DNA from: a bacterium
GTDB lineage: Bacteria; Campylobacterota; Campylobacteria; Campylobacterales; Sulfurimonadaceae
Direction: 5' to 3'
Length of the DNA: 64,000 nucleotides
NCBI GenBank assembly: GCA_018825665.1
Contig: JAHJEG010000037.1
Coordinates: forward strand, 1 to 64,000
This document shows positions 41,331 through 64,000 of the stretch, piece by piece. Position 1 is the first letter of the stretch. The number at the start of each line of letters is the position of its first letter. The notes under the pieces are model-generated. The model ran no database searches, was not told where the DNA came from, and saw only the letters and a program-made list of their open reading frames with translations. The position numbers were made by a program, and so were the translations under genes.

Positions 41331-41421
41331 CTTAAATCCTTTTTCTTTTTCATCATCTAAATCATCCATGTTAAAGTATATCGGTCCGCAAAAGAATTTC
41401 TTTAACTATTTTCTATTATAT

Positions 41422-42941: not shown

Positions 42942-43985
<1,044 letters not shown>

Positions 43986-45119
43986 ATGACCAGGCTTGAC
44001 TACTCCACTCAGTGCATAGAAGAAGATGATATCAAAGGGGTTATGGAGGTTTTAAACAGTCCATTTTTGACACAGGGCAGAAAAGTTGAAGAGTTTGAAA
44101 AAGCTCTATGCGACTACACAGGCGCAAAATATGCCATAACGTTTAATTCTGCGACCTCAGCTCTATCGGGCGCTTACCTGGCATGTGGAATCAGTGAAGG
44201 TGATGAGATAATCACTTCGCCTATCAGTTTTGTGGCAACCTCAAATATGTTTGTAACACTTGGAGCAAGACCTGTCTGGTGTGACGTAAAACTTGATGGC
44301 AACATAGATGAAACACAAATCCAAAGACTTATAACTCCAAAAACAAAAGCAATAGTACCCGTTGACTTTGCAGGCAAACCTGTTGCTATTGAGCTTATAA
44401 ACTCCATTGCCAAACAACACAACCTGCTTGTGATTCAAGACGCTTCACATGCTCTAGGCTCAAGCATGAATGGCAAGAAAATAGGAATATTGGCTGACAT
44501 GACAATATTTAGCTTTCACGCCATAAAACCAATAACGACCAGCGAAGGCGGCGCTGTTCTTACGGACAATGAAGAGTATGCTAAAGAGCTCAGACTCATC
44601 CGTTCTCACGGCATGATAAAAAAAGAGTTGTGGAACTCTGACATGGTACGCATGGGTTATAACTTTAGAATGACCGAGGTGGCTGGTTCACTGGGTGTCA
44701 CACAAATAAAAAAACTTGATACTTTCATAAAAAAAAGAAATGAAATTTCAGCTTATTATGATGAAAGATTTAAAAACGAGAAGCTGTTTTTAACCCAAAA
44801 AATCAGTTCCGGGCAGATCAGTTCAAGACACCTCTACCCCGTCATCTTGGCTCCACAGCTGCACTGTTCAAAAGAAGATATCTTTAAAGAGCTCCAAGAG
44901 CTTGGTCTTGGTGTGCAGGTTCACTATAAACCGATCTATCAAAACAGTTTTTACAAAGAAAAATTTGGAGAGATTTCACTTCCGGTAGCAAACGACTTTT
45001 ACCGTTCAGAAATTTCCATACCATGCCATCAGCAAATGAGTTTAGAAGATGCTGAGTTTGTAGCCGATATTTTTTTGAAAGTTATAAACAAATACAGTTT
45101 TAGAGGGTGCAGTTTTTAA
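43986..45119 (+). CDS. pseC: UDP-4-amino-4,6-dideoxy-L-altrosamine transaminase PseC
   Basis: A 377-residue PLP enzyme of the DegT/DnrJ family that aminates the PseB product at C4. The PLP lysine is in FSFHAIKPITTSEGG. The RLIRSHGM and MGYNFRMTEVAGSLG segments are family hallmarks. It starts immediately after the pseB stop. It carries the last signal word (44180) before a 9-kb stretch lacking it. Confidence 0.95.
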   Translation: MTRLDYSTQCIEEDDIKGVMEVLNSPFLTQGRKVEEFEKALCDYTGAKYAITFNSATSALSGAYLACGISEGDEIITSPISFVATSNMFVTLGARPVWCDVKLDGNIDETQIQRLITPKTKAIVPVDFAGKPVAIELINSIAKQHNLLVIQDASHALGSSMNGKKIGILADMTIFSFHAIKPITTSEGGAVLTDNEEYAKELRLIRSHGMIKKELWNSDMVRMGYNFRMTEVAGSLGVTQIKKLDTFIKKRNEISAYYDERFKNEKLFLTQKISSGQISSRHLYPVILAPQLHCSKEDIFKELQELGLGVQVHYKPIYQNSFYKEKFGEISLPVANDFYRSEISIPCHQQMSLEDAEFVADIFLKVINKYSFRGCSF

Positions 45120-47254: not shown

Positions 47255-47916
47255 TGGAAAAAGTAATCATCTTTGGTTTGGGAAATATCTCTGAAATAGC
47301 AAATTTTTATTTCTCAGGTGATGATAAATATGACGTGGTCGCATTTACAATAGACAAAGATTTTCTTACCTGCGATACGTTCAATGAGCTGCCTGTTATA
47401 GCTTTTGAAAATATAGAACAACACTATCCGCCATCAAAATTCAAAATATTCATTCCCCTTAGTTACACAAAAATCAATAAATTAAGAGAAGAGAAATTTT
47501 TGCAGGCAAAAGCGAAAGGATACAGTTTTGTTACATATATCAGCCCAAATGCAACTGTAGCAACAAATGCAAAAATTGGTGAGAATTGTTTTATTTTCGA
47601 AGACAATACCATACAGCCATTTGTAGAGATTAAAGACAATTGCATCTTATGGAGCGGTAATCATATAGGGCATCATTCAACTATTGAAGAGAACTGCTTC
47701 ATAGCATCACATGTAGTTGTCTCAGGCGGCGTAGAAATTGGTCAGAACACATTTATAGGTGTAAACGCGACTCTAAGAGATCATATCAAAATAGGCAAAG
47801 CCAATGTTATTGGAGCCGGCAGCTTAATATTATCAGACACGAAAGATAACGAGGTCTATATGGCAAAAGCCACTGAGGCTTCAAAAGTTCCCAGCAATAG
47901 ACTCAGGGGGATTTAA
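47254..47916 (+). CDS. NeuD/PglD-like sugar O/N-acyltransferase
   Basis: A 220-residue protein with an N-terminal Rossmann-like domain (IFGLGNISEIANFYF) and a C-terminal left-handed beta-helix of hexapeptide repeats (IGENCFIFEDNTIQPF and onward, with the GHHSTIEENCFI catalytic-type His). This is the NeuD/PglD architecture of acetyl-CoA-dependent sugar acyltransferases. It lies with no gap after a methyltransferase and before a PhyH dioxygenase. Confidence 0.8.
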   Translation: MEKVIIFGLGNISEIANFYFSGDDKYDVVAFTIDKDFLTCDTFNELPVIAFENIEQHYPPSKFKIFIPLSYTKINKLREEKFLQAKAKGYSFVTYISPNATVATNAKIGENCFIFEDNTIQPFVEIKDNCILWSGNHIGHHSTIEENCFIASHVVVSGGVEIGQNTFIGVNATLRDHIKIGKANVIGAGSLILSDTKDNEVYMAKATEASKVPSNRLRGI

Positions 47917-47917
47917 A

Positions 47918-48724
47918 ATGAAAGAGAGCTATTATGGAAGACTCAAGCAAGTTGATTATAACTCAAAAGTTGATTTGTATGTTGAAGAGATAAAAAATAA
48001 CGGATTTACTATTATCGAAGGTTTATTGGACGAAGATGAATTACTGCAATATCGCAAAAAGATAGACGCAATATATAAAATACAAGAGACTGAGTTTGGC
48101 AAAGACAGGTTACACTCAATACAAGAAACAAATGTATGCAGAATGCCATTAAAGTATGATGATTATTTCATAAATATTGCAACAAAGGATACTGTACTTA
48201 ATATTGTTGAAAAATTTCTTGGCAGGTATTTTATACTAAATCTCCAAAATGCAATTATCAACACCCCAAAGGAAGAGCATCATCAAAGCGCATGGCATAG
48301 AGATTTACCATACCAAAACTTTGTTATTTCTAATCCTATTGCAATCAATGCCCTCTTTTGTATAGATGATTTTTCAGCCAAAACAGGCGGAACACTTGTG
48401 GTGCCCTATACACACAAGATGGAAGTTTTACCATCAGATGAATATATACAAAAAAACTCTCTTACGGTACATGCAAAAGCCGGTTCTGTTGTAATATTTG
48501 ATTCAATGCTATTTCACAAAGCCGGATACAACACATCAGATATAATAAGAAGAGCAGTAAATCATATCTATTCAGTACCTATCATGAAACAGTTTTATGA
48601 CTTTCCAAAGGCACTTGAGGGTAAATTTTCAGACAATGTATTTTTAGGTCAATTACTCGGGTACACATCACAGACTCCATTAGATGATAAACAGTGGAGA
48701 GAAAACAGAGCAAAAAACATATGA
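47918..48724 (+). CDS. Phytanoyl-CoA dioxygenase (PhyH) family oxygenase
   Basis: A 268-residue Fe(II)/2-oxoglutarate-dependent oxygenase. Iron ligands are HRD in SAWHRDLPYQ and a distal His in LFHKAGYN. An Arg for 2-oxoglutarate follows in IIRRAVNH. PhyH enzymes hydroxylate small molecules; within a sugar cluster, hydroxylation of a sugar or of its acyl group is plausible but unproved. It overlaps the following gene by ATGA. Confidence 0.82.
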   Translation: MKESYYGRLKQVDYNSKVDLYVEEIKNNGFTIIEGLLDEDELLQYRKKIDAIYKIQETEFGKDRLHSIQETNVCRMPLKYDDYFINIATKDTVLNIVEKFLGRYFILNLQNAIINTPKEEHHQSAWHRDLPYQNFVISNPIAINALFCIDDFSAKTGGTLVVPYTHKMEVLPSDEYIQKNSLTVHAKAGSVVIFDSMLFHKAGYNTSDIIRRAVNHIYSVPIMKQFYDFPKALEGKFSDNVFLGQLLGYTSQTPLDDKQWRENRAKNI

Positions 48725-49830
48725 AAAAAAGCTGTTGTCTCTGCGGTAGTCAAGATTTTAAAAATATACTTTTACTCGATAAAGGAGTTATGAGTGACGG
48801 TTCCGGTACAAAATACCCTTTGATTAAAGAAGAATGTTCGAGATGCGGCACAATTAGAACGGGGATTAATTTTGATACAGACAGCTTTTATGAAGACAAT
48901 TACACTCCAAGCAGGAGTCTTGATACATTAGCTATAAAAAACAATAATGCCACAACAAGAAGTCTCTTCATTTATGAATGGATCACAAAACTAATCAAAG
49001 AATCCATTCATTCATTTACAAGCATATTGGAGATTGGTTGTGGTCAAGGTTACCTCCTAGAGAAATTTAATATTAAAAACCGATATGGCATTGAGCCTAA
49101 CGCATCTGCAGCGAAAGAAGCAAAAAACATAGCTAATATCAGAGAGATGGGCTTTGAGCAATTAGACGATAGTGAAGGCTATGACCTCTTAGTATCCTAC
49201 TGTGTCATAGAGCATATTAAAAACCCGGCTTTCATGCTTGAAAAGATGCATAACATATTAAATGAAAATGGCTTGATGGTGATTGCTCTGCCAATACAGG
49301 ACAAGCTTAATTATGACCTGTTATTTTTAGATCACCTTCACCACTTTCATCATAAAAACTTTGAAGTTTTTTTAAACAACAATCACTTCTCTGTTATAAA
49401 CTATGAGCTGGGAAGCGGCTCCTATTCAAATATAGCTCTTTATATCTGTAAAAAAAATGCGACCGCACAAATGAAGCCGTACAGCTATATACACAATAAA
49501 AATATTTATAATATTCACATCATACTAAACTCTCTCCATAATATCAAAAATCAATATATCCATAAGGAACTCTATGCGTTTGGCTTTGGAGAGATAGCAA
49601 AGACTATCCTTCCTTATGCAGAGTTGGATACTTTAATAAAATACTATATTGACGATTATACATCGGGTGAGAAGGTCATCACATCCATCAAAGCTAAAAA
49701 TATTTTTAGAGAAAAAGAGAGGGTGGCGGTCTTGCTCTTGGTAAATGTCAGCCATATTCAAAAAGTTAAAAGCATATTTCAAGAATTTAAAAATATAAAC
49801 TTTATAGATATATTTGATGGCACAAAGTAA
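48721..49830 (+). CDS. Sugar C-methyltransferase-like protein (zinc finger, SAM and C-terminal domains)
   Basis: A 369-residue protein with the three-part plan of TDP-sugar C-methyltransferases. An N-terminal zinc site (CCLCG and CSRCG) is followed by a SAM domain with LEIGCGQGYLLEKF. A C-terminal Rossmann-like domain has YAFGFGEIAKTILPYA and YYIDDYTSGEKV. The ORF track starts nine codons earlier; the ATGA overlap with phyH at 48721 and the MKKSCCLCG start are preferred. It implies a branched sugar in the glycan. Confidence 0.75.
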   Translation: MKKSCCLCGSQDFKNILLLDKGVMSDGSGTKYPLIKEECSRCGTIRTGINFDTDSFYEDNYTPSRSLDTLAIKNNNATTRSLFIYEWITKLIKESIHSFTSILEIGCGQGYLLEKFNIKNRYGIEPNASAAKEAKNIANIREMGFEQLDDSEGYDLLVSYCVIEHIKNPAFMLEKMHNILNENGLMVIALPIQDKLNYDLLFLDHLHHFHHKNFEVFLNNNHFSVINYELGSGSYSNIALYICKKNATAQMKPYSYIHNKNIYNIHIILNSLHNIKNQYIHKELYAFGFGEIAKTILPYAELDTLIKYYIDDYTSGEKVITSIKAKNIFREKERVAVLLLVNVSHIQKVKSIFQEFKNINFIDIFDGTK

Positions 49831-49834
49831 ACAT

Positions 49835-50734
49835 ATGAGATGGAAAAAACTGGGAAAGATTTTTGACTTCCAAGCTATCAACGATAATCTCTTTACTCAT
49901 GCCTCCAATCCGTTGGCAAAACACCTGGAGGGTGATGTATTTAGAATCTTTTTCAGTTCAAGAGATAAAGAGAACAAATCATCAGTGGGTTTTGTGGATT
50001 TGAATATTTTTACAAAAGATATCATAAATCTCTCTACTCAAGCAATTTTTAAATATGGTGATACCGACAGTTTTTACTCACATGGTGTCAGTATAGGCAA
50101 TCTATATTCAGCCGATGATAAAGAATACATGCTTTTCATGGGTTGGCAGATAAAAGATAATGCGCATTGGAGAGGTGAAATAGGCAGGCTTCGTTTAGAT
50201 GACAATCAACTCTCTTTAGACCCAAACGCTCTCTTTATCGGTTGTGATACAGAGGATAAAGTCAGTTTATCTTACCCTTGGGTGATGCTTGATGAGGGAA
50301 TATATAAGATGTGGTACGGTTCGACGATTAGCTGGACATCTAAAAATAAAGAGATGGTACATGTTATAAAATATGCCACTTCTAAAGATGGTGAAACATG
50401 GAAGAAGCATGGCTTAGCCGTTCCCTATGAAATAGGAGTAGCACAAGCTTTTTCAAGACCTAGCGTTATAAGAGATGCGCGAGCTTACCATATGTGGTAT
50501 TCTTATCGAAGCGGTGAGGGATCGAAGTACAAAATAGGCTATGCCCACAGTGCTGATGGTGTTAACTGGGTCAGAAAAAACAGCTTAGGCTTGGGGGTTA
50601 GTGACTATGGATGGGATTGTGAAATGGTATGCTATCCCTTTGTCTTTGAACATAAGAACAATATGTATATGCTTTACAATGGAAATGCCTATGGCAAAAC
50701 TGGCTTTGGCTTGGCAATATGGGAGCACTCATGA
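49835..50734 (+). CDS. Beta-propeller glycosidase-like protein
   Basis: A 299-residue protein with repeating blade motifs (MWYGSTISW, MWYSYRSG, MLYNGNAYG), like five-bladed propellers of GH43/GH32/GH130-type enzymes. No signal peptide, so it is cytoplasmic. The start is uncertain: a TTG (49814) and an ATG (49817) lie upstream, but MRWKKLGKIFDF at 49835 matches the way relatives begin. Similar proteins occur in surface-polysaccharide clusters without assigned function. Confidence 0.6.
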   Translation: MRWKKLGKIFDFQAINDNLFTHASNPLAKHLEGDVFRIFFSSRDKENKSSVGFVDLNIFTKDIINLSTQAIFKYGDTDSFYSHGVSIGNLYSADDKEYMLFMGWQIKDNAHWRGEIGRLRLDDNQLSLDPNALFIGCDTEDKVSLSYPWVMLDEGIYKMWYGSTISWTSKNKEMVHVIKYATSKDGETWKKHGLAVPYEIGVAQAFSRPSVIRDARAYHMWYSYRSGEGSKYKIGYAHSADGVNWVRKNSLGLGVSDYGWDCEMVCYPFVFEHKNNMYMLYNGNAYGKTGFGLAIWEHS

Positions 50735-51429
50735 AAAAAATCGCCATTTCGCAATCAAACTATATTCCATGGAAGGGATATTTTGACATGATAAACATGG
50801 TGGATGAATTTATTCTCTATGATGATGTGCAATACACAAGAAGAGACTGGAGAAACAGGAATAAGATAAAAACACAACACGGCCTCAAATGGCTTTCTAT
50901 TCCTGTCGAAGCCAAAGGCAAGTACTTTCAAAAAATCAACGAGACTAAGATTTCAGATAAAGAGTGGGGAGCCAGGCACTGGAGCATCCTACAACAAAAC
51001 TACGCTCACACAAAATATTTTACTAGGTACAAAGAGATATTTGAAGAGCTATATCTCAACAGCAATGAAGAGTATTTAAGTAAAATAAATTATAAATTCA
51101 TCATGGCTATCAATAAACTTCTAGGAATCACTACAAAAATAAGAGATTCCGGTGAGTTTAATTTGGCAGACGGACAGACTGAGAGACTTTTAACTATTTG
51201 TAAAGATTCTAATGCCGATATATACCTGAGCGGTCCTGCGGCTAAAGAGTATTTTGATGAAGATTTAGCGCAAAAAGAGGGCATTAAGGTGGAGTGGATG
51301 GATTACAGCGGCTATAGAGAGTATCATCAGTGTTTTGAGCCGTTTGAGCATGCCGTGAGTATACTTGACCTGCTTTTTAATGAAGGGCACAATGCGCATA
51401 AATTTATGAAAAGTTTTACAAAACAATGA
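50731..51429 (+). CDS. WbqC family protein
   Basis: A 232-residue WbqC-like protein (ISQSNYIPWKGYFDMI at the N-terminus, the defining motif, and DDVQYTRRDWRNRN). WbqC proteins are found in O-antigen and nonulosonate loci; their reaction is not established, though acyl transfer has been suggested for some. GGGAG precedes the ATG at 50731, which overlaps the propeller stop. It overlaps the downstream aminotransferase gene. Confidence 0.85.
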   Translation: MKKIAISQSNYIPWKGYFDMINMVDEFILYDDVQYTRRDWRNRNKIKTQHGLKWLSIPVEAKGKYFQKINETKISDKEWGARHWSILQQNYAHTKYFTRYKEIFEELYLNSNEEYLSKINYKFIMAINKLLGITTKIRDSGEFNLADGQTERLLTICKDSNADIYLSGPAAKEYFDEDLAQKEGIKVEWMDYSGYREYHQCFEPFEHAVSILDLLFNEGHNAHKFMKSFTKQ

Positions 51430-52577
51430 ATATATCATTCAACAAGCCACCCTACACCGGCAACGAAGAACAGTATGTTCTAAAGTCTATGCGAAGTGAT
51501 AAAATCTCCGGAAACGGAGAGTACACACAAAAAGTCGAGAAGTGGTTTGAAAAAGAACTATTGTGCAAAAAAGCACTTTTAAGCACCTCCTGCACGCATG
51601 CTTTGGAGATGGCGGCTATACTGCTCGATATAAAAGATGGCGACGAAGTTATCATGCCAAGCTATACTTTTGTAAGCAGTGCAAATGCTTTTGTCCTAAG
51701 AGGTGCAAAAATCGTTTTTGTTGATATCCGTCCTGATACGATGAACATAGATGAGACAAAAATAGAAGCGGCTATAACACACAAGACAAAAGTTATAGTA
51801 CCCGTGCATTACGCCGGTATTGCCTGCGAGATGGACACTATCATGAATATAGCAGACAGACACAAACTGTTTGTTGTAGAGGATGCCGCTCAGGGGATGA
51901 TGTCGACGTACAAGGGAAAAGCACTTGGAACTATAGGGCACATGGGGGCCTACAGTTTTCATGAGACTAAGAATTATACCAGTGCCGGTGAGGGTGGACT
52001 TCTTATCATTAATGATGACACATTCACAGAAAAAGCCGAAATCATCAGAGAAAAAGGAACAAACAGAGCCCTCTTTTTTCAGGGAAAAGTAGATAAATAC
52101 AGCTGGGTAAATATAGGAAGCAGTTATCTTTTAAGCGATGTAAGTGCCGCTTACCTATGGGGACAGCTTGAAAATACAGATACTATCAACAGTAATAGGC
52201 TTGCCAGCTGGAACCTGTATCACAACGGCCTCAAAGAGCTGGAAGAAAAAGGTTTTTTTGAACTGCCAAAAGTACCCGCAAAAACAGTTCACAACGGGCA
52301 TATTTTTTATCTCAAAGTTAAAGACCTAGGGACGAGAACTGAGATCTTAGACTATCTGAAAGTTCAAGGCATCAATGCAATATTTCACTATGTCCCGCTT
52401 CATTCTTCAGAAGCCGGAAGAAAATTTGCCAGATTTAACGGAGATGACATCTATACTACCAAAGAGAGCAACAGATTGCTTAGACTTCCTATGTACTACG
52501 CTCTTTTAAAATCTGAAATAGATTTTGTAGTCAAAGCGATACATGATTTTTACACATATAAAGAAGTTTCAAAATGA
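51426..52577 (+). CDS. WecE/RffA-like sugar nucleotide aminotransferase
   Basis: A 383-residue DegT/DnrJ/EryC1/StrS PLP enzyme. The PLP lysine is in YSFHETKNYTSAGEGG, and the GSSYLLSDVSAAYLWGQLE segment is characteristic of WecE-type dTDP-4-keto-6-deoxyglucose aminotransferases. It is distinct from pseC in this locus, so the cassette probably makes a second amino-deoxysugar, with WbqC and the acyltransferase modifying it. No dTDP-sugar synthesis genes (rmlA, rmlB) are in the window. It overlaps pseF by four bases. Confidence 0.82.
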   Translation: MNISFNKPPYTGNEEQYVLKSMRSDKISGNGEYTQKVEKWFEKELLCKKALLSTSCTHALEMAAILLDIKDGDEVIMPSYTFVSSANAFVLRGAKIVFVDIRPDTMNIDETKIEAAITHKTKVIVPVHYAGIACEMDTIMNIADRHKLFVVEDAAQGMMSTYKGKALGTIGHMGAYSFHETKNYTSAGEGGLLIINDDTFTEKAEIIREKGTNRALFFQGKVDKYSWVNIGSSYLLSDVSAAYLWGQLENTDTINSNRLASWNLYHNGLKELEEKGFFELPKVPAKTVHNGHIFYLKVKDLGTRTEILDYLKVQGINAIFHYVPLHSSEAGRKFARFNGDDIYTTKESNRLLRLPMYYALLKSEIDFVVKAIHDFYTYKEVSK

Positions 52578-53278
52578 ACCATACAGATAAAGCAGTAGCT
52601 ATCATACCCGCAAGAGGCGGCAGCAAGAGGATACCCAGAAAAAACATCAAAGATTTTTTTGGAAAACCACTTATTGCCTATTCGATACAAACCGCACTTG
52701 ATTCACAGCTTTTTGATAAAGTCATCGTATCAACCGATGATGAAGAGATTGCAGACATTGCAAAAAAGTATGGAGCAGAGGTTCCGTTTTTGCGGCCTTC
52801 AGAGTTAAGTGATGACTACAGCGGTACAACCGACGTCACAAAACATGCTTTAAAATGGCTGCAGGAACATGGAGAGAATTATGATTACGTTTGCACCATC
52901 TATGCCACTGCTCCGCTGCTGGATAAAAAATATTTAAAAGAGAGCTTGGAAAAACTGAAAAATTCCACCGCCGTCAACGCTTTTTCTGCCACGACAATGC
53001 CATTTCCCATTCAAAGAACATTTAAAATAAACAAAGACGGCAGATGCCAGATGTTTACTCCCGAGCATTACTCTGCAAGAAGCCAGGATCTGGAGGAAGC
53101 CTATCAGGATGCCGGACAGTTTTATTTCACAAAAACAGGAAAAAAATCTGATGAGATTATGTTTGGTAAAGAAAGCATACCGGTTATTTTGCCAAGATAT
53201 TTAGTACAGGACATTGACACTTTAGAAGATTGGAAAAGAGCTGAATATATGTACCAGGCGATAAAAGCTTCACAATGA
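52574..53278 (+). CDS. pseF: Pseudaminic acid cytidylyltransferase PseF
   Basis: A 234-residue CMP-sugar synthase that activates pseudaminic acid with CTP. It has the N-terminal IIPARGGSKRIPRKNIK, VSTDDEEIA and a DAGQFYF segment. Overlaps on both sides with the aminotransferase and pseG genes place it in one transcript. Confidence 0.94.
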   Translation: MNHTDKAVAIIPARGGSKRIPRKNIKDFFGKPLIAYSIQTALDSQLFDKVIVSTDDEEIADIAKKYGAEVPFLRPSELSDDYSGTTDVTKHALKWLQEHGENYDYVCTIYATAPLLDKKYLKESLEKLKNSTAVNAFSATTMPFPIQRTFKINKDGRCQMFTPEHYSARSQDLEEAYQDAGQFYFTKTGKKSDEIMFGKESIPVILPRYLVQDIDTLEDWKRAEYMYQAIKASQ

Positions 53279-54198
53279 AAACGATCCTTTTTCGGGCCGA
53301 CTCCTCCTCAGACATTGGAACCGGACATATCATGCGCGATTTGGTTTTGGCATCACAGTTCAAAAAAAAGTTTCCACATGCCGAGATTTTCTTTGCTGCA
53401 CAAGACTTAGACGGCAATATCAACCACAAAATAGTGGATGCGGGATATGAACTTAAAAGAGTAACTTCCAATGCAAAAGAGGAACTTTTAGAGCTTATAA
53501 GAACACGGCATGTGGAAATGCTGGTGATAGACCATTACGGCATCGATTATAACTACGAAAGCTTCCTGAAAAACAATTCAAACATAAAGATTTTCTCTTT
53601 GGATGACACCTATGAAAAACACGATTGCGACATACTTCTCAACCACAACATAAGTGCGGATAAAAAAAGATACAAAGGTTTGGTACCGGAGGGATGTGAA
53701 CTCAGATGCGGAGCAAAATACACGCTTCTAAGAGATGAGTTTAACAAAGAGAAAAAGAAAAAGAAAAAAGCAAATAAAGAAAAAACAATATTCTTAGCCA
53801 TGGGTGGAGCTGACCACAGCAATATAAACATAGAGATATTAAAAGTTTTAAAAGCGTTTAAAAATATAAAAGTCAAGCTTGTAACAACGAGTGCGAACAA
53901 AAATATCAAAGCCCTCAAAGGATACGCACAGAATAAAAAATGGATTACATTGCATATAAACTCAAACTCTATCGCCAAACTTATGAGAAAAAGCGACGTA
54001 GCGCTTATTACACCCAGTGTTACGCTCAACGAAGTCTACTATATGGGTCTTCCCTTTATCGCTATTAAGACAGCCTCAAACCAGAATGAGATATATGAGT
54101 ATTTAAAAAAGAAGAAGTTTTTAACTTTAAGCAGGTTCGACAGACACAAGCTAAAATCAAAACTCAAAACTCTCTTAAAGAAGATACAAAATGCTTGA
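53275..54198 (+). CDS. pseG: UDP-sugar hydrolase PseG
   Basis: A 307-residue GT-B-like hydrolase removing UDP from the 2,4-diacetamido-trideoxy-altropyranose intermediate. Start motif RADSSSDIGTGHIMRDL holds the catalytic His, and NEVYYMGLPFIAI is in the C-terminal half. A Lys-rich insert (EKKKKKKANKEK) coded by GAAAAA repeats sits near residue 160. Two exact signal words (53372 and 53507) lie within it. Confidence 0.92.
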   Translation: MKTILFRADSSSDIGTGHIMRDLVLASQFKKKFPHAEIFFAAQDLDGNINHKIVDAGYELKRVTSNAKEELLELIRTRHVEMLVIDHYGIDYNYESFLKNNSNIKIFSLDDTYEKHDCDILLNHNISADKKRYKGLVPEGCELRCGAKYTLLRDEFNKEKKKKKKANKEKTIFLAMGGADHSNINIEILKVLKAFKNIKVKLVTTSANKNIKALKGYAQNKKWITLHINSNSIAKLMRKSDVALITPSVTLNEVYYMGLPFIAIKTASNQNEIYEYLKKKKFLTLSRFDRHKLKSKLKTLLKKIQNA

Positions 54199-54679
54199 GA
54201 CTGTAAGCCTTATAAATTTTATAGATTTGACGCAAAAAGAAAAAGAGATGGTTCTTTCATGGCGAAATCACAGTGAGATAAAAAAATGGATGCATACCTC
54301 ACATGATATTTCACTTGAGTCGCATTTAAACTTTATTGATACTCTGAAAAACTCTCAACAAAAGCTCTATCTCTTGGTAAAACAAGGCAGCGAGCCTATA
54401 GGCATAATCGATTTTACCGATATTACCGATACGAGTGCAGAGATTGGGATCTATAAAAATCCATATGCCAAAAAGAAAGGGCATCTGCTTTTACATACTC
54501 TCATCACATATGCTTTTGAGACTCTTGATTTAGATAAAATTCATGCGGAAGTCTACAAAACAAACACAAGAGCATTAAATTTGTATGAGAAATACAACTT
54601 TAAAAAAACAAAAACAAAGAAAATAGATAACAAAGAAGTTCTTTGTTTGGAGCTGAAAAATGAAAATAGATACTTTTGA
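54191..54679 (+). CDS. pseH: Pseudaminic acid pathway N-acetyltransferase PseH
   Basis: A 162-residue GNAT acetyltransferase that adds the N4 acetyl group after PseC. It shows a SWRNHSEIKKWMH start, the acetyl-CoA loop around KNPYAKKKGHL, and VYKTNTRALNLYEKYNF. It overlaps pseG and pseI. Confidence 0.9.
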   Translation: MLETVSLINFIDLTQKEKEMVLSWRNHSEIKKWMHTSHDISLESHLNFIDTLKNSQQKLYLLVKQGSEPIGIIDFTDITDTSAEIGIYKNPYAKKKGHLLLHTLITYAFETLDLDKIHAEVYKTNTRALNLYEKYNFKKTKTKKIDNKEVLCLELKNENRYF

Positions 54680-55706
54680 TTTGACTAAAGACGGCACTTT
54701 CATAATAGCTGAAGTGTCCGCCAATCATAACGGTGATTATGCAATAGCAAAAGAGATGATAAAAGCGGCATATGATGCGGGAGCCGATGCTGTTAAACTT
54801 CAAACTTATACAGCTGACACCATGACACTCGATGTGAAAAATGAATACTTTATGATAGACCAAGGGACTATCTGGGATGGCAAAAATCTGTATGATCTGT
54901 ATAAAGAAGCATACACCCCTTGGGAGTGGCAGCCTAAACTAAAAGAGTATGCGGATGAACTTGGCATCATACTTTTTTCATCCCCGTTTGACAAAACATC
55001 TGTAGATTTTTTGGAAGATATGAATGTCGCAGCATACAAAATCGCCTCTTTTGAGATTACAGACATTCCGCTCATCCGCTATGTCGCTTCAAAACAAAAG
55101 CCTGTGATTATCTCAACCGGGATTGCCTCACTTGAAGATATTGAAGAGGCTGTCAAAACTTGCAAAGAATCAGGCAATGATGAGATTATTTTGCTCCAAT
55201 GCACCTCTGCATACCCTGCCCCGCTTGAGGATGCGAATCTTTTAACCATACAGGATTTAGCAGAGAGATTTGGTGTGATTGCAGGGTTCTCTGACCACAC
55301 TTTAGGTATTACGGCACCCGTAACTGCCGTAGCTTTGGGTGCGAAAGTTATAGAAAAACATTTTATACTCGACCGTGCCATGGGCGGAGTTGACAGTGAG
55401 TTTTCACTTAATATTGATGAGTTTAAAGAGATGGTCAAAGCCGTCAGGGAAACCGAAAAACTTATGGGCAAAGCAACTTACGAGATGACACCAAAAAAGC
55501 TAAAATCCCGTGAATTTTCAAGAAGTATCTTTATTTCACAAGATATCAAAAAAGGGGAACCTTTTACAGAAAAAAATCTAAAGATTGTACGTCCAAATTA
55601 CGGTCTTGCACCAAAATATATAGATAAAGTTTTAGGTAAAATAGCCGATAAAGATTACACAAAAGGTACTCCGCTGACAAGTTTACCAAAAGAGGATAAG
55701 AGATGA
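54660..55706 (+). CDS. pseI: Pseudaminic acid synthase PseI
   Basis: A 348-residue NeuB-family synthase condensing the trideoxy-altrose with phosphoenolpyruvate. The TIM barrel begins EVSANHNGDYAIAKEMI; KLQTYTADTMT is present. A C-terminal SAF antifreeze-like domain (about 285-345) includes REFSRSIFISQDIKKGEPFT. A GGAG ribosome site lies inside pseH. Confidence 0.95.
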   Translation: MKIDTFDLTKDGTFIIAEVSANHNGDYAIAKEMIKAAYDAGADAVKLQTYTADTMTLDVKNEYFMIDQGTIWDGKNLYDLYKEAYTPWEWQPKLKEYADELGIILFSSPFDKTSVDFLEDMNVAAYKIASFEITDIPLIRYVASKQKPVIISTGIASLEDIEEAVKTCKESGNDEIILLQCTSAYPAPLEDANLLTIQDLAERFGVIAGFSDHTLGITAPVTAVALGAKVIEKHFILDRAMGGVDSEFSLNIDEFKEMVKAVRETEKLMGKATYEMTPKKLKSREFSRSIFISQDIKKGEPFTEKNLKIVRPNYGLAPKYIDKVLGKIADKDYTKGTPLTSLPKEDKR

Positions 55707-56839
55707 GATACTGCACGAAATGTGTTATGCCGGACACAAAACCGGAACTGACTTTTGATGAGAAGGGCGTATGCAATGCCTGTCGTGCTCATGAAAGAAA
55801 AGTTGGTACTATTGACTGGAAGCAGAGAGAAAAAGAGTTTTTAGAGATTGTTAAAACTAACAAAAAGAATGACGGTTATGATGTTTTAATCCCTGTTAGC
55901 GGAGGGAAAGACTCGACGTACCAAACAATCAAAGCACTTGAGCTTGGATTGAAACCGCTTTGTGTATGTTTTGAGCCCACTATCGCCACAGAGCTTGGAA
56001 AAAGAAATCTTGATAACCTGCAAAATCTTGGCGTGGATTTGATTCTTGTTAAAAAAGACCCCAAAGTATATAAAAGTATGGTTATTGAAGGCTTTAAAAC
56101 ACTCGGCGACAATGAATGGCCTGACCATGTGGGAATATTTACGGTTCCTGCCCACTTTGCCGTCAAATTTAATATTCCTCTGCTTTTATGGGGAGAAAAT
56201 TCTCAGTTTGAGTACGGCGGACCTGCAACTTCACAAGACAACAAACATCTCAACAGAAGATGGCTTGAAGAATTTGGCGGACTTCTTGGCTACAGAGTTG
56301 AAGATATGATAGGAATTGATGGAATAACCAAAAAAGATCTCTATCTCTACAATTATCCCTCAGACGAGGAGATACAGAGAGTCGGAGTTACAGGCGTATT
56401 TCTAGGCTACTACTTTCCCTGGGATACAAGAAGACAAACAGATGTATCTGTAGCGCACGGCTTTGAGACTGCATCACGACATATAGAGACCACCTATACA
56501 AACTTTGAGAACCTTGACTGTCACTCTATGACGATACATGATTATCTGAAATATGTGAAGTACGGTTTTGGCCGCGCGACAGATCATGCATGTTTAGATA
56601 TCAGAAACGGCGATATAAACAGAGAAGAAGGGGTAAGGCTGGCAACTCGCTATGACGGACGCTATCCTTATGAAGCCGTGACTGAGTTTTGCAATTACAC
56701 AGGTATGAGCAAAGAGGAATTTGATGAGACCGTAGATACTTTCACCAACAAAAAGATTTTCCTCCAAGATGAAAACGGTGAATTTTTAAGAGATATAGAC
56801 GGCTCTTTGGTAAGAAACAGCGAGTATGTTTTAAGATAA
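55703..56839 (+). CDS. pseA: N-acetyl sugar amidotransferase PseA
   Basis: A 378-residue enzyme of the PseA/WbpG/LnpA group, which turns an N-acetyl into an acetamidino group. A zinc site (CTKCVMPD, CNACRAHE) precedes a PP-loop SGGKDSTYQ for ATP. In Campylobacter pseA is needed for the acetamidino form of pseudaminic acid; in Pseudomonas WbpG works with HisH and HisF paralogues. Here both follow at once. Confidence 0.92.
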   Translation: MRYCTKCVMPDTKPELTFDEKGVCNACRAHERKVGTIDWKQREKEFLEIVKTNKKNDGYDVLIPVSGGKDSTYQTIKALELGLKPLCVCFEPTIATELGKRNLDNLQNLGVDLILVKKDPKVYKSMVIEGFKTLGDNEWPDHVGIFTVPAHFAVKFNIPLLLWGENSQFEYGGPATSQDNKHLNRRWLEEFGGLLGYRVEDMIGIDGITKKDLYLYNYPSDEEIQRVGVTGVFLGYYFPWDTRRQTDVSVAHGFETASRHIETTYTNFENLDCHSMTIHDYLKYVKYGFGRATDHACLDIRNGDINREEGVRLATRYDGRYPYEAVTEFCNYTGMSKEEFDETVDTFTNKKIFLQDENGEFLRDIDGSLVRNSEYVLR

Positions 56840-57447
56840 TGGTCAGCATCATAGACTACGGGATGGGAAACTCCGCCTCTGTAAAAAAAGCATTTGATTT
56901 TTTAAATATACCGTGCCGGATAACAAACAAAGCTCAAGACATAAAAACTGCAGACAAGCTTCTTATCCCGGGTGTCGGCTCTTACGGCGATGCGATTCAG
57001 GCTCTTCACGCTCTGGAACTTTTTGAGCTTCTAAAAGAGGAAGTCTTAGTCAACAAAAAACCTATTTTGGGAATATGCCTCGGGATGCAGCTTATGGGAT
57101 GCTCAAGTGCAGAAAGCGAAGGGGTCAGTGGATTCGGGTTTATCGATTCCACATGCCAAAGATTTGACATTGACCTGAAAGTTCCACATGTCGGCTGGAA
57201 CAACGCAAAAATTGTGAATAAGGATTCCCGGCTCTTTAAAAACATACCCGATAACAGTGACTTCTATTTTGTCCACTCTTACCATTTTGGCATCAACACC
57301 AAAGAGAAGAGCACAACTGTAAAATACGGTTATGATTTTGCAAGCTCTTTTGAGAAAGATAATATTTTCGGCGTACAGTTTCACCCTGAAAAAAGCCAAA
57401 AATATGGTCTTGAACTTCTCAAAAATTTCGGTGAACTTCAATGCTAA
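56839..57447 (+). CDS. hisH: HisH-like glutamine amidotransferase subunit
   Basis: A 202-residue class I glutaminase. The nucleophile Cys is in LGICLGMQLMG and the His/Glu pair in VQFHPEKS. It likely releases ammonia from glutamine for PseA through the HisF-like partner, rather than serving histidine synthesis, since no other his genes are adjacent. One exact signal word (57147) and a variant (57182) lie inside. Confidence 0.9.
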   Translation: MVSIIDYGMGNSASVKKAFDFLNIPCRITNKAQDIKTADKLLIPGVGSYGDAIQALHALELFELLKEEVLVNKKPILGICLGMQLMGCSSAESEGVSGFGFIDSTCQRFDIDLKVPHVGWNNAKIVNKDSRLFKNIPDNSDFYFVHSYHFGINTKEKSTTVKYGYDFASSFEKDNIFGVQFHPEKSQKYGLELLKNFGELQC

Positions 57448-58193
57448 AACACAGAATCATACCCTGCGTACTTTTAAAAGACTGGCAGCTTACCAAAAGT
57501 GTCAAGTTTAAAGAATTTCGTACGATCGGGCATCCTAAAGTTACCTCTAAAATATATAACAGAAGAAATGTTGATGAGCTTATCGTCTTGGACATCGATG
57601 CAAGCGGTTCAGACAACAGCATAAACTATAAAACTCTCAGCGACATCGCAAAAGAGTGCTTTATGCCGCTCACACTTGGCGGAGGGATAAAATCACTCCA
57701 AGACATAAACTCCCTTTTGGCTATAGGCGCGGACAAGGTCTCCATCAATACAATAGCGATTAAAAATCCGGATTTTATAAGAGAAGCAAGCAAAAAATTT
57801 GGTTCACAATGCATAGTTGTAAGCATAGATGTCATCGAAGATTCCGGCATGTGGAAAGTTTATAACAAAAACCTTGGCATCTTGGAAGAACCGGAGCTTT
57901 TGGAATGGGCAAAGAGGTGTGAAGAACTGGGTGCAGGCGAGATTCTTCTTACCAGTGTCGACAGAGACGGATGTGAAAGCGGTTATGACACAAAACTCAT
58001 ATCTCTTCTTGCCAAAGAGCTGACTATCCCTATTATCGCCAATGGCGGAGCATCTACGCCCGAAGATGCCGTACAAGCTGTAAAAAGCGGCGCAGATGCG
58101 GTAGCAGCCGCCAGTATTTTCCATTTTACACAATATACTCCCAACAATATCAAAGAAGCTTTGCAAGAGGCAGGCTTTGCTGTCAGGTTATAA
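57441..58193 (+). CDS. hisF: HisF-like ammonia-channel subunit
   Basis: A 250-residue TIM-barrel protein paired with the HisH-like gene. The N-terminus reads RIIPCVLLKDWQ where true HisF reads RIIxCLDVKDGR, so catalytic Asp11 is Leu. The second catalytic Asp (VVSIDVIED) is kept. The loss argues that it acts as an ammonia conduit for PseA. One exact signal word lies at 57846. Confidence 0.85.
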   Translation: MLKHRIIPCVLLKDWQLTKSVKFKEFRTIGHPKVTSKIYNRRNVDELIVLDIDASGSDNSINYKTLSDIAKECFMPLTLGGGIKSLQDINSLLAIGADKVSINTIAIKNPDFIREASKKFGSQCIVVSIDVIEDSGMWKVYNKNLGILEEPELLEWAKRCEELGAGEILLTSVDRDGCESGYDTKLISLLAKELTIPIIANGGASTPEDAVQAVKSGADAVAAASIFHFTQYTPNNIKEALQEAGFAVRL

Positions 58194-58240: not shown

Positions 58241-61200
58241 ATGAACACTATAATCACAAAAGAAGAATCTATTCACTCTTGTGATGATTTTGAATTAAAC
58301 ATCAAGCGGGAAAATCAACTTAGCTACAAATATTCTTATCCGGATTCCAAAGAGCTCAAAGGGATTGTTTTTATAGTGGCCGGATTCGGTGAAGATACAA
58401 ACAGTGACTATATCGATAAACTAAGAACCTATATCGCAGATACATTCTCTGTTGTAGCTGTGAATGTCTTTTACCACTGCTTCTATTCAAGACCGGAAAA
58501 TGGTGCTATCGTAAATGCGGATGTTGATGATATGCAAACCCTCAAAGCCTATGCAAATCATGAGGGAATCTCCTACGGCATTCAAGATACGGCGGAAAGT
58601 CTGCTCACTAAAATCAATGCCGTACTCCAAACAAAAAAAGACTTAGGCGAGATAAACGAACAAGACAGAGCTGCAATCTCCATGACAATTTTTCCAAAAC
58701 ACGGAGAATACCAGAACTTCGGCATCATGCAGGCACTTGATCATCTGAATGTTTTAAATACGCTCGAAAAAAAATCTTTTAATTTTCAAACAGACTACAG
58801 TGTCACAATGATGGGAAGCAGTCATGGCGGCTATATATCTTATCTTTGTGCCAAACTTGCTCCACACAGAATCGATTGTGTTATAGACAACTCTTCATAT
58901 GTCAAACCGCCCTATAATTATTTTCTCGGAAAAGAGTATGATGCTTCGTCAGCTGAATATCATGCTACATATCAAGAAAATATAATTTTGTACTGCTTCG
59001 TAAAAACCAACTGGACTTTAGATAAAAATTCCAAAAACTATTTTTCAAATGACAGATACAGGATCAGGGATATATCAGACCAGGAACATCTACAGACAAT
59101 GGGAACGTGCGCCCACAATAGAACCAGATATATATCCTACCACTCATCTAAGGACGCCATTGCACCCATTGAAGACAAAATCAATTTTTTCAATGAGCTT
59201 CAAGCACTGGGTTTTGATGTAAAACTGCATATCATCGACAATGAATCCTATGTAGAGGGCAGATTTATAAAGAACCTGCATCACGGCATGGATATGTCTC
59301 TCAAAGAGTTGGCAAACAGAGAACTCCCGGGTGCGCTCAATATAAAAAACAAAAAATCCAAAACGAAAAAAATAAGTTACACATGCGATACCTTGGCATA
59401 TGAATTTGAAATCAAAGACGACTCCTATGTATGCAAACAGCCAAGCCTGCATGATGAGACAAAAGAAGAAACCCTCTATTTAGACAATATATCCTATTTC
59501 CAAGAAAATCATCCACACATCTACAATAAACTCGCAGCACTGGATGCAGCGATAGAACAAAAACTTCATAAGAGCAGATACGAACTCATGATGAAAGATA
59601 CCTACTATGATGTTCTTGAGATTGTATCAGGCAACTATCTTTATGGCAGCAACAGCAATGAGTATGCGGATATTGCCGCTCAAAGCATTACTTTTAAAAC
59701 GAATGAAAATGTTTTTGAGACATTCAAAAAAACACAGATACAAAAACAGAATCTACAAAAATATGCAAAAGAGAGCATCCTGGATAATAATCTCAGCGGC
59801 CTGGCGCCTATTCTTCACTATATAAACGAAAACAAACCTCCCCATTCTGAATTAAAAACAATAGACAAGTTTATCTTTTTCGGTGTCGGCTTAGGGGGGC
59901 ATCTTTTGGCAATTGATAAAAAAATCCATGCCAAAGTGTATTTCATCATTGAAGATGATCTAGAACTTTTCAGACTGTCACTTTTTACGACTCCATACTA
60001 TAAGTTAGCCTCCAAAAGTCAACTTATTTTTTCTGTATTTGATACAGCACAGGAGTTTAGCTCATATGCCTTTTCATTTCTAGAAAAACGTTTTTACAAC
60101 AACCATTATCTAAAATATTTTCAGATGCTCAACCATAGTGATGACAAACTCAAAGAGTTTCATATTAAAGTTGCCTCGCAGTCACATAATCTTTTTTATT
60201 ACAATGCGATATTAAAACAGTATTTAAGACCGCTTGAGTACCTGCAAGATAATTTCAAATTCTTAAATATACTAAAACTCTACACAAACCCTTCACTGGA
60301 TTCCAGGCCCTTTTTACTCTTGGCGGCTGGACCGTCCCTGCATAAAAATATACAATGGCTCAAACAAAATCATACTAAATTTATAACTGTAGCCTTGTCG
60401 GCGACATTAAGCATTTTAGAACAAGAGGGAATCGCACCGGACATTGTCACGCATATAGATGGGCTTGAAGAGAGCATCATTCACTTTGACAAGCTAAAAT
60501 CTTTAAATTTTTTTAAAAACAGCATCTTTTTAATCTCTGCAAGAACTCTCAGAGAAATAGTTGAGAGACTCGATAAGGAAAATATATTTTTCTTTGAAAA
60601 CGGCACGAGCTATAAAAAAGATTTTGGGAACCTCTCCGCTCCCTGTGTCGGTTCAACCACATATCTCCTCTTGTTGGCGCTGGGAATCAAAGAACTCTAC
60701 CTTTTAGGTCTGGATCTGGCACTTGACTCTGCAACCGGTGCTACACATGCCACAGGGCATGAATACAGCCAAACTTTAGACTTAAAGCTCTCAGATACAC
60801 ATGAGGATATACTGACGTTTAAAGACAGCGTTATAAAAACACTCGGGAACTTCAGGAATGAAGTATATACTACACCTGATTTTATGCAATCCATAGACTC
60901 CATCAATGCATCTTCAAAGAGTTTTAAAAGAACAGATCAAAATGTTTACAATCTCAATGACGGGGCAAAATTTGAAAATACTATCACATTGGATATCGAT
61001 GCACTCAATACTCAGAATTTTGCGGATATAAACAAAACAGTTTCACACACCAAAATACATGAAATATTTTCTCTTCACTCTTCAAACAGAATAACCGATG
61101 ATGAATTTACAGGCTTAAAAGAGCGGTTAGACAATGCGATACGCATCCAGGAGATTATAATAGCCCAACAACACAGCCTATTTGATTCATCCGTCGAGTT

Positions 61201-61462
61201 TCTTGATTCACTGGTAACTATTTCTGATAAACTTACATACAGCACATCGGCGATTAGCTACGATTTAGCTTTGGTGTATCAGGAATATTTTAGATTTATC
61301 TACACATTTATCTTTGATTTTTTCAACACAGACAAGACAGACAAAAAAATACATGTAGATGAAATAAATAAATTATTATGCACCCAGCTGATGAGAATCG
61401 TACACGGGTATAAAGAAGAACTGGAAAATATACTTTTAAAGGATACTATATGCAAGAGATAG
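58241..61462 (+). CDS. DUF2920 hydrolase fused to a Maf flagellin glycosyltransferase
   Basis: An unusually long 1073-residue protein. Residues 1 to about 370 match DUF2920, an alpha/beta hydrolase-like domain of Campylobacter flagellar loci, with nucleophile elbow GSSHGG (S194). After a Lys-rich linker (about 385-395), residues about 440-1073 form a complete Maf protein (MAF_flag10/DUF115) with LAAGPSLHKNIQWLK, DIVTHIDG and the second GLDLALDSATGATHATGHEY block. Maf enzymes transfer CMP-activated nonulosonates to flagellin. In Campylobacter the two families are separate genes. The fused hydrolase could add or remove an acyl group at the point of transfer. It overlaps the next Maf gene by 13 bases. 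Confidence 0.85.
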   Translation: MNTIITKEESIHSCDDFELNIKRENQLSYKYSYPDSKELKGIVFIVAGFGEDTNSDYIDKLRTYIADTFSVVAVNVFYHCFYSRPENGAIVNADVDDMQTLKAYANHEGISYGIQDTAESLLTKINAVLQTKKDLGEINEQDRAAISMTIFPKHGEYQNFGIMQALDHLNVLNTLEKKSFNFQTDYSVTMMGSSHGGYISYLCAKLAPHRIDCVIDNSSYVKPPYNYFLGKEYDASSAEYHATYQENIILYCFVKTNWTLDKNSKNYFSNDRYRIRDISDQEHLQTMGTCAHNRTRYISYHSSKDAIAPIEDKINFFNELQALGFDVKLHIIDNESYVEGRFIKNLHHGMDMSLKELANRELPGALNIKNKKSKTKKISYTCDTLAYEFEIKDDSYVCKQPSLHDETKEETLYLDNISYFQENHPHIYNKLAALDAAIEQKLHKSRYELMMKDTYYDVLEIVSGNYLYGSNSNEYADIAAQSITFKTNENVFETFKKTQIQKQNLQKYAKESILDNNLSGLAPILHYINENKPPHSELKTIDKFIFFGVGLGGHLLAIDKKIHAKVYFIIEDDLELFRLSLFTTPYYKLASKSQLIFSVFDTAQEFSSYAFSFLEKRFYNNHYLKYFQMLNHSDDKLKEFHIKVASQSHNLFYYNAILKQYLRPLEYLQDNFKFLNILKLYTNPSLDSRPFLLLAAGPSLHKNIQWLKQNHTKFITVALSATLSILEQEGIAPDIVTHIDGLEESIIHFDKLKSLNFFKNSIFLISARTLREIVERLDKENIFFFENGTSYKKDFGNLSAPCVGSTTYLLLLALGIKELYLLGLDLALDSATGATHATGHEYSQTLDLKLSDTHEDILTFKDSVIKTLGNFRNEVYTTPDFMQSIDSINASSKSFKRTDQNVYNLNDGAKFENTITLDIDALNTQNFADINKTVSHTKIHEIFSLHSSNRITDDEFTGLKERLDNAIRIQEIIIAQQHSLFDSSVEFLDSLVTISDKLTYSTSAISYDLALVYQEYFRFIYTFIFDFFNTDKTDKKIHVDEINKLLCTQLMRIVHGYKEELENILLKDTICKR

Positions 61463-63462
61463 AGCTCCAAGCCATGAGGAATTATGAAAACAATCTAAAA
61501 TTTTTATCCAATAACAACCCGTCACTTTTTAAAAAAATACAACTTTTTGATTTAGGCCAAGAGAATGAAGATCTTCAAGCCAGATATGATTTAGAGTACA
61601 AAGAGAACTATTTTGACGTTAAGGACATAGCATCCAATAATTACCTTTATAACATGGACTCTATCAAATATTCCCAACAGGTCGCCCAGAATATAAACTA
61701 TAAAAAAACATCTTTTCTTTTTAACGGTATGCTCGATTATGAAATATCCAAAGAGCAGATGCAAAAAATTCAAGAACAAAAGGCTTTTGCATACAATAAC
61801 ATAAAAGATATACTGCCGATTATGAAATATGCTATGGAGCTTGCACCCAAAAGTACCACAATGAAACATATTGATAAATTCATCTTCATAGGTACAGGTC
61901 TTGGTTTGCATATAGCCGATGTCCACCGGCAAATACATTCTACAGAATACTTAATAATTGAAGATGATTTAGAGCTTTTTAGACTTTCTCTTTTTACTAC
62001 TGCCTATCATGAAATAGCTCAAGATGCCAATTTGCACTTTAGCATTTCAAAAAACGAAAATGAATTTACCGCTGTTATGGCCGGATTTTTAGAGGGTTCC
62101 TTTTTTAATAACAGATATATAAAATACTTTCACTTTCCTGCACACTCAACAAATAAAATGAAATTGATTCAAAATAATTTAGCCACGCAAACACATCAGA
62201 TCTTTCCCTATGACATTCAACTTGAAAAATGCCTAAGACCATTAAAGAGAATAAAACAAGAGTATAAAACTATTGATATTTCAAAAAAATTTCCAGAATC
62301 TGCCATATCGCAAAAACCTCTTCTCATCTTGGCAGCCGGTCCTTCAATGAAAAAAAATCTCGATTGGCTTAAAACCAATAAAGATAAATTCATCATACTT
62401 GCCGTTACTGCTGTGCTAAAAACGCTTCACGATAACAACATCAAGCCTGATATCGTTACGCATATCGACGGGGTTGAAAGTGAGGGAAACAGCTGTATGG
62501 TTCATTTTGAAGGGTTTAATGCAAAAGAATTTTTAAAAGACAGTCTCTTTATCCTAGGTTCGCACACTCCAAACTCTGTTTTGGACTTGGTAAAAAAAGA
62601 GAATGTATTTTTCTTTGAAAGTTTTACATTCTACTTCAAGAATTTCGGTTCCTTGTCTACGCCGTGCATTGGTTCAACATCAACAGTGCTTTCCTTGTGG
62701 CTCAATGCCAAAGAGATATATCTGCTTGGTTTAGATCTGGCCCTTGACCAGGAAACCGGAGCGACACACTCTGGAGACCATGAGTACAACGCAACGCACG
62801 ATCTCAGCAATACAGACGAAATAGACTACACTATTTCACTCAGAAACAATCTCATTCCGATTAAAGGCAACTTTTCCAAAACAGTGTTTTCAACTCCGAT
62901 ATTTATCGCTTCGGTTCAATCTTTATATAATAATATACCGCAAATCATCGATGATTCCCAAACTATCTATAACCTAAATGACGGCGCCTATTTCTATCAG
63001 ACAACACCGCTAAAAATAGAAAATATAAACAAATATAAGGACATAGACAAGAAGGATTTAGCTGTCGAATTAAATGCTCTGTTTAACTCAAAATCCAAAT
63101 CAAAACTAGATCAAGAAGATATGGCATCTCTGAAAAAACGTCTTAACAATGCAAAAGAGGTGCAGAAGAATTTTCAAGAATATGAAAATAAAAACTTTAC
63201 AAATGAAGAGGCATACCTTTATGACTTGCTTGGAATCGTTTCATCTACCTTAAAGTATCATGGTCGGGAGGGCAATAACCTCACACTGGTTTTTGCCTCA
63301 TATTTTCAATACACTTTACCCTATATAGTGGATGTTATCAATACAAAAGAGGTAACTAAGATTATGAAACATCTAAAAAAGCTCGATAAAATGTTTGTAG
63401 ATGGCTCCTATAATATTCTGCATAGATATATTCAAGAGATTGAGGAGTTTTTCAATACTTAA
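61450..63462 (+). CDS. Motility accessory factor Maf, flagellin glycosyltransferase
   Basis: A 670-residue Maf protein paralogous to the C-terminal part of the preceding gene. Both share a YFDV.DIASNNYLY-like N-terminal block, FIGTGLGLHIAD, LAAGPSMKKNLDWLK, DIVTHIDGVE and LGLDLALDQETGATHSGDHEY. It should move pseudaminic acid or a derivative onto Ser/Thr of flagellin in the cytoplasm before export. AAAGGA lies 7 nt upstream of the start. Convergent to the flagellin gene 18 bases away. Confidence 0.92.
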   Translation: MQEIELQAMRNYENNLKFLSNNNPSLFKKIQLFDLGQENEDLQARYDLEYKENYFDVKDIASNNYLYNMDSIKYSQQVAQNINYKKTSFLFNGMLDYEISKEQMQKIQEQKAFAYNNIKDILPIMKYAMELAPKSTTMKHIDKFIFIGTGLGLHIADVHRQIHSTEYLIIEDDLELFRLSLFTTAYHEIAQDANLHFSISKNENEFTAVMAGFLEGSFFNNRYIKYFHFPAHSTNKMKLIQNNLATQTHQIFPYDIQLEKCLRPLKRIKQEYKTIDISKKFPESAISQKPLLILAAGPSMKKNLDWLKTNKDKFIILAVTAVLKTLHDNNIKPDIVTHIDGVESEGNSCMVHFEGFNAKEFLKDSLFILGSHTPNSVLDLVKKENVFFFESFTFYFKNFGSLSTPCIGSTSTVLSLWLNAKEIYLLGLDLALDQETGATHSGDHEYNATHDLSNTDEIDYTISLRNNLIPIKGNFSKTVFSTPIFIASVQSLYNNIPQIIDDSQTIYNLNDGAYFYQTTPLKIENINKYKDIDKKDLAVELNALFNSKSKSKLDQEDMASLKKRLNNAKEVQKNFQEYENKNFTNEEAYLYDLLGIVSSTLKYHGREGNNLTLVFASYFQYTLPYIVDVINTKEVTKIMKHLKKLDKMFVDGSYNILHRYIQEIEEFFNT

Positions 63463-63480: not shown

Positions 63481-64000
63481 TTACTGTAATAATTTCAAAA
63501 CATTTTGCTGAACGGCATTTGCCTGACTCATAGCGTATGAACCCGACTGTGCAAGAATATTGTGTTTTGCAAAGTTTGCAGACTCTGCTGCGAAGTCAAC
63601 ATCTCTGATTTGAGACTCTGCCGCTGCAATATTAACTTCAGTAACAGAAATATTTCGAATTGTAGCTTCAAGTTTGTTCTGTGCAGCACCCAATGTCGCA
63701 CGCAAACCGTCCACTTCTTTGATAGCATCATCCATTGAAGAAATTGTAGCCTCTGCAGAAACTTGTGACCCTACTGTTTTAGATCCTGTGACTAATACGG
63801 CAACATCTGCATCGCCTATGTTTAGAGTTTGTGTTTCACTGCTGTATGCACCTGTGTGAAAAACAAATATTCCGGCATTGTATGTGCCGTCTAACAGATT
63901 AAGCCCATTAAATTTAGTTGTGCCTGCTATATCACTTGCTTCTTCTAGCAGAGCTGTTATCTCCTGAGAAATATATCCGCGAGAATCCGCATCCTGTGTA
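63481..64000 (-). CDS. Flagellin, 3' part (gene continues past the window edge)
   Basis: The minus-strand frame is open from 63481 to the end of the window (about 172 codons), longer than the ORF track shows. The C-terminal D0/D1 helices are typical of flagellin ([50 protein letters not shown]). The upstream part ([33 protein letters not shown]) is the standard D1 segment. A Ser/Thr-rich stretch between them would carry the glycans added by the Maf enzymes. The N-terminal half lies beyond 64000. Confidence 0.96.

Follow-up and report, generated by a model that had tools for sequence, protein, structure and literature searches.

A DUF2920-Maf fusion at the end of a pseudaminic-acid operon points to acyl tailoring of flagellin sugars as a candidate role for DUF2920

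The window analyzed here is a 64,000-nucleotide stretch of a Sulfurimonadaceae genome (contig JAHJEG010000037.1, positions 1 to 64,000), in which a pseudaminic-acid operon, equipped with acetamidino-modification genes as well, ends in a DUF2920-Maf fusion gene. The gene order begins with FliS- and FliD-like genes (40959-42804, assigned by eye), followed by PseB and PseC (42978..45119, + strand, both above their NCBIfam cut-offs), a second sugar module (45138-52577), and a PseF-like cytidylyltransferase with PseG, PseH, and PseI (52574..55706, + strand, the last three above NCBIfam cut-offs). The acetamidino-modification genes (55703..58193, + strand) come next and encode a WbuX/PseA-type amidotransferase, a HisH-like protein, and a WbuZ/HisF-like protein, with WbuX scoring above its cut-off and WbuZ reaching 297.3 against a cut-off of 299.7. 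Downstream of the fusion, a second, stand-alone Maf of 670 amino acids (61450..63462, + strand) overlaps its 3′ end and is followed by a convergent flagellin gene, the 3′ part of which lies in the window (63481..64000, − strand). The fusion and the stand-alone Maf are the genome's two Maf copies, both at this locus, and the fusion holds its one DUF2920 copy. No carrier protein or ligase gene was found next to the fusion by profile scans and the gene list of the window.

The second sugar module encodes a glycosyltransferase, two methyltransferases, a hexapeptide transferase, a PhyH-type oxygenase, a WbqC-like protein, and a WecE-type aminotransferase (TIGR02379, 640 bits), a content that suggests a further amino sugar on flagellin.

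The fusion gene occupies 58241..61462 on the + strand as a single ATG-initiated frame of 1,073 amino acids, and its translation contains no internal stop. The original prediction of one 1,073-residue DUF2920-Maf protein was thereby borne out, with every Pfam domain above its gathering cut-off. Pfam, structural modeling, and Foldseek together delimit the DUF2920 domain to residues 1-400 (58241..59440; PF11144, residues 10-395, 371.9 bits against a gathering cut-off of 24.7, E = 5.7e-111). A poorly conserved linker of 11 residues (401-411; 59441..59473) separates it from the Maf N-terminal region (residues 412-668; 59474..60244), which was assigned from the alignment and from Maf_flag10_N (PF20157, residues 412-592, 44.4 bits, E = 1.8e-11). 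Aligned with the other fusions described below, the linker of the window is 9-27% identical, compared with 44-59% for the adjoining Maf N-terminal region. The central, MptE-like domain (PF01973, residues 669-828, 100.1 bits, E = 1.5e-28; 60245..60724) and a C-terminal region (60725..61459) with long helices (residues 932-1072) complete the protein, in which inspection by eye found no apparent signal peptide. A stop or frameshift between the domains, named beforehand as the observation that would speak against the fusion, is absent, and the same junction recurs in four other genomes; an assembly chimera or a hidden stop is therefore ruled out. DUF2920-Maf is a new domain architecture built from two known families, and the passages of the literature on DUF2920 that were retrieved contain no mention of such a fusion.

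The AlphaFold model of the DUF2920 domain (pLDDT 95.2, pTM 0.93) adopts an alpha/beta-hydrolase fold. Ser194 (codon 58820-58822) sits in the nucleophile elbow G192-S-S194-H-G196 (58814..58828), between strand 182-193 and helix 195-206, and the putative triad acid Asp305 (59153..59155) and base His348 (59282..59284) follow strands 296-302 and 326-332, respectively; as modeled, this is the usual alpha/beta-hydrolase order of the three elements. Across 49 aligned DUF2920 domains, drawn from Campylobacterota, Desulfobacterota, and Pseudomonadota, all three residues are invariant (49/49), as are Asp16, Glu18, Trp258, Arg276, and His301. The GSSHGG elbow is therefore intact, as had been claimed, with GSSHG at residues 192-196 and Ser194 kept in all 49 relatives. 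There is no sign of an inactive DUF2920, the predicted triad being intact in every fusion, including one that is split between contigs.

Among the 50 Foldseek matches listed for this model, we found feruloyl/cinnamoyl esterases and S9 peptidases; the nearest ones are hydrolases, and none of the 50 is an acyltransferase. A PDB sequence search for DUF2920 relatives returned nothing significant. Feruloyl/cinnamoyl esterases (Est1E, LJ0536) and S9 peptidases share the alpha/beta-hydrolase core and the Ser-Asp-His order with DUF2920, but they differ in gene neighbors, are only 9-14% identical in sequence, and reach a TM-score of about 0.6 on the smaller partner only. An earlier survey likewise describes DUF2920 as an alpha/beta hydrolase, with a small extra domain of its own (PMC11878206).

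The two-domain model matches the solved Maf structure 5MU5 (Foldseek E = 9e-24, 727 columns, TMt 0.60) and contains the long C-terminal helices, with a pTM of 0.66 that leaves the orientation of the two domains uncertain. Structure prediction, which had been suggested as a check, thus yielded a DUF2920 hydrolase fold (pLDDT 95) joined to a Maf fold like 5MU5. Of 23 residues invariant in 13 stand-alone Mafs, the Maf half of the fusion keeps 21; the exceptions are residue 450 and residue 812, the latter changed conservatively in some of the other fusions. The claim that the Maf is complete holds on four counts, namely both Pfam domains above cut-off, the conserved residues, the helical C-terminus, and the 5MU5 fold. 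A misnamed Maf, such as archaeal MptE, is ruled out by the PF20157 match, this fold, and the flagellin neighbor. The fusion scores far below the NCBIfam cut-off for PseD (NF050051; 33.6 versus 670 bits), which indicates a divergent Maf rather than PseD itself. It resembles the Maf/PseD/PseE flagellin nonulosonic-acid transferases (PF20157 + PF01973; 5MU5) in its three Maf regions, conserved residues, and operon and flagellin context, and differs from them by an extra N-terminal enzyme of 400 residues, DUF2920.

A search for other DUF2920-Maf fusions, also among the checks proposed originally, identified four further genomes that carry the full fusion. Three hold complete frames of 1068-1079 amino acids, from Sulfurimonas (L024), Sulfuricurvum (L026), and Sulfurospirillum (L025); in each, the fusion is followed by an oppositely oriented flagellin gene, whereas the window has the second Maf in between. 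In the fourth (G176), from a further family, the fusion gene is divided between two contigs (L105, L106), and the order PseG-PseH-PseI-PseA-HisH-HisF-fusion-Maf, read across the contig break, is that of the window. A frame of 470 amino acids in this genome (L106:6484-7893) has a PseG-like start and is long enough to include PseH, an apparent PseG-PseH fusion.

Truncated fusions of about 600 amino acids, consisting of DUF2920 and part of the Maf N-terminal region only, occur in Sulfurimonas G002 (L111:15327-17129) and Aliarcobacter (L030:7989-9782). Both lie inside Leg operons, between LegI- and LegG-type genes, and they share internal gap and deletion boundaries and lack the MptE-like domain, although they belong to two families. 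Their common Maf part is 51% identical and their DUF2920 63%, a pattern unlike simple decay. The fusion is nevertheless rare: DUF2920 is present in 14 of 228 genomes of the window's family, three with the full fusion and one with a truncated form.

Phylogenetic analysis of 32 DUF2920 domains placed the seven fused ones in one group with moderate support (87/71), with the unfused L023 as sister. This clustering makes a single fusion event likely, and several independent fusions are not supported. For the fused Maf halves, a single clade is neither recovered nor rejected in the Maf tree (p-AU 0.131), so that later swaps are possible. One fusion, followed by loss of the Maf catalytic part in the truncated lineages, is the simplest reading, with moderate support.

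We next consider the genomic context of DUF2920 elsewhere. A scan of genome contigs, which finds only copies carrying one of two short motifs, yielded 52 loci. In 25 of these, Maf, flagellin, or nonulosonic-acid genes share the stretch with DUF2920; such counts are sensitive to contig ends and to the queries chosen. The 25 include all 11 Campylobacterota loci outside Campylobacter (L023-L033). Two Thiomicrospira loci (L057, L073) place DUF2920 within a Leg operon; here and in the truncated fusions, the LegB, LegC, LegG, and PtmE-type genes (L030, L057, L111) were identified by eye, on the strength of their initial residues and their order. Within about 8 kb of DUF2920 in L020, L038, and L107, none of the searched partner genes was found.

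At the genome level, a NeuB-type synthase is present in 10 of 11 DUF2920 genomes tested and Maf in 8 of 11, and two Alphaproteobacteria among those tested have DUF2920 and NeuB without Maf. Since DUF2920 genomes nearly always have the synthase and do not always have Maf, the substrate of DUF2920 is likely to be the sugar; NeuB is widespread, however (9 of 14 control genomes), so this co-occurrence is supportive only. DUF2920 presence is not a significant marker for Maf (8/8 versus 89/119, p = 0.09).

The Campylobacter jejuni Cj0617 paralogous family (Cj1305, Cj1306, Cj1310, Cj1342) is DUF2920 (PF11144), with the full domain and the same invariant triad as the fusion, and it adjoins maf and pse/leg genes. 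These Campylobacter proteins are stand-alone and, according to PMC3068675 and PMC7099621, often phase-variable, whereas the DUF2920 of the window is fused. DUF2920 and Maf are indeed separate neighbors in Campylobacter, as originally noted, and are tightly spaced in L036, L039, L045, L047, and L113; because they are neighbors there already, the fusion adds less than it seems to. The functional link that the fusion was said to provide is nonetheless upheld for nonulosonic-acid flagellin glycosylation, backed by recurrence, operon position, and neighbors elsewhere, and is stronger than first stated.

Some DUF2920 relatives are accompanied by acyl-activation genes. In the Alphaproteobacteria L059, L061, and L068, a fatty-acyl-AMP-ligase-like gene and an ACP gene precede DUF2920; at L059:7547-10715, the ends of the three genes touch, in a genome with NeuB and no Maf. 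In Campylobacter L112, DUF2920 genes flank a DltA-like amino-acid adenylation enzyme, a GNAT, carrier proteins, an FkbH-domain protein, and a KASIII, near pseF, pseG, and pseH, and L114 and L115 hold parts of this set. Such an acyl- or aminoacyl-AMP ligase and carrier-protein context favors acyl addition over removal. Ligase and carrier genes are present beside these relatives but absent beside the fusion, and the carrier-associated domains are distant from it (28-39% identity), with possibly different donors. The likeness to DltA/DltC- and FAAL/ACP-type systems lies in the ligase and carrier genes that adjoin DUF2920 relatives; in those systems, the acyl-accepting enzyme is not DUF2920.

The pseudaminic acids on C. 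jejuni flagellin include O-acetyl, N-acetylglutamine, and di-O-methylglyceroyl forms, most of which had not been assigned to genes; Cj1295 is required for the di-O-methylglyceroyl form, and the DUF2920 genes Cj1305 and Cj1306 switched phase in the same variants (PMC3068675). In a 2026 study, cj1305 and cj1306 are placed alongside pse genes as putative transferases (PMC13130089).

We propose that the fusion is a bifunctional cytoplasmic flagellin-modifying enzyme in which DUF2920 acylates a nonulosonic acid and Maf attaches the sugar, a reading to which we assign a probability of roughly 0.45. The Maf half would transfer the operon's CMP-nonulosonic acid product to serine or threonine of flagellin before export. 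The DUF2920 half would form an acyl-enzyme on Ser194, charged from a carrier (acyl-ACP or acyl-CoA), and hand the acyl group on to a hydroxyl or amine of that sugar, either before sugar transfer or shortly afterwards, and the joining of the two halves would couple decoration to attachment. In Aeromonas, a published study reports that Maf-dependent glycosylation precedes chaperone binding and export (PMC4065374), and by extension the whole fusion protein would be expected in the cytoplasm. That DUF2920 tailors acyl groups of the sugar, in either direction, appears probable; that it does so by acyl transfer rather than hydrolysis we would hold at a little under even odds.

The reverse chemistry, the acyl editing suggested originally, has DUF2920 as an esterase or amidase stripping the nonulosonic acid, or its CMP-activated form, of acyl groups, so that Maf receives the trimmed sugar. 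This is unlikely, yet it draws on the fold and triad, which among the 50 Foldseek matches listed are nearest to carbohydrate-ester (feruloyl/cinnamoyl) esterases and acylaminoacyl/dipeptidyl peptidases, and on a fusion that has no adjoining acyl-carrier module. Fold neighbors do not tell transferase from hydrolase, however, and the ligases and carrier proteins beside the relatives serve to load acyl groups. Those ligase-ACP-DUF2920 operons, together with the two Alphaproteobacterial genomes that have DUF2920 without Maf, would also suit a thioesterase-like or editing role on carrier-bound or other acyl intermediates, with Maf joined mainly for co-production and co-localization; this we regard as improbable, given that the fusion and the neighboring second Maf hold DUF2920 at the sugar-attachment step and that carrier genes are absent nearby. 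About as improbable is an accidental read-through of two adjacent, functionally uncoupled genes: the close spacing in Campylobacter offers a ready origin, but several families retain the fusion, its triad and Maf residues undamaged, and two lineages without the Maf catalytic part still keep the Maf N-terminal part joined to DUF2920. The action on a glycopeptide that was also suggested originally gains no support from the analysis, and a role as an S9-like peptidase or deacylase with the flagellin (glyco)peptide as its substrate is very improbable, since the many S9 peptidases among the listed matches share the common hydrolase core alone at about 10% identity, and, despite a weak Peptidase_S9 Pfam match in DUF2920 relatives, DUF2920 in L057 and L111 belongs to operons for sugar synthesis, which precedes any step on flagellin.

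Extending the proposed decorate-then-attach enzyme, DUF2920 might be the missing carrier-protein-dependent acyltransferase for unusual nonulosonic-acid acyl groups (such as N-acetylglutaminyl or di-O-methylglyceroyl), the fusion a single decorate-and-attach enzyme, and the Maf N-terminal part of L030 and L111 a module on which the sugar, or else a separate Maf, docks; we offer this tentatively, as a doubtful but possible extension. According to PMC7099621, DUF2920 is a large, partly phase-variable family, without an assigned activity, in the flagellar glycosylation loci of Campylobacter. The recurrent fusion and the ligase and carrier-protein operons elsewhere narrow the hypotheses for this family to nonulosonic-acid acyl tailoring, and non-pathogenic sources now supply enzymes for testing its role, among them one polypeptide with both predicted activities.

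Further DUF2920 arrangements were observed in the survey. In L062, L063, L065-L067, L069, and L110, DUF2920 is divided into two overlapping frames with a break near residue 180-186, immediately before the nucleophile, a pattern such as would be expected of phase-variable homopolymer tracts. A split DUF2920 at L064:7962-9133, from a Citrobacter that is one of the 11 genomes tested and has neither NeuB nor Maf, is probably a decayed acquisition. Two frames of 872 and 852 amino acids (G640:C1:293678-296155 and G646:C8:88806-91283) each contain two tandem DUF2920 domains.
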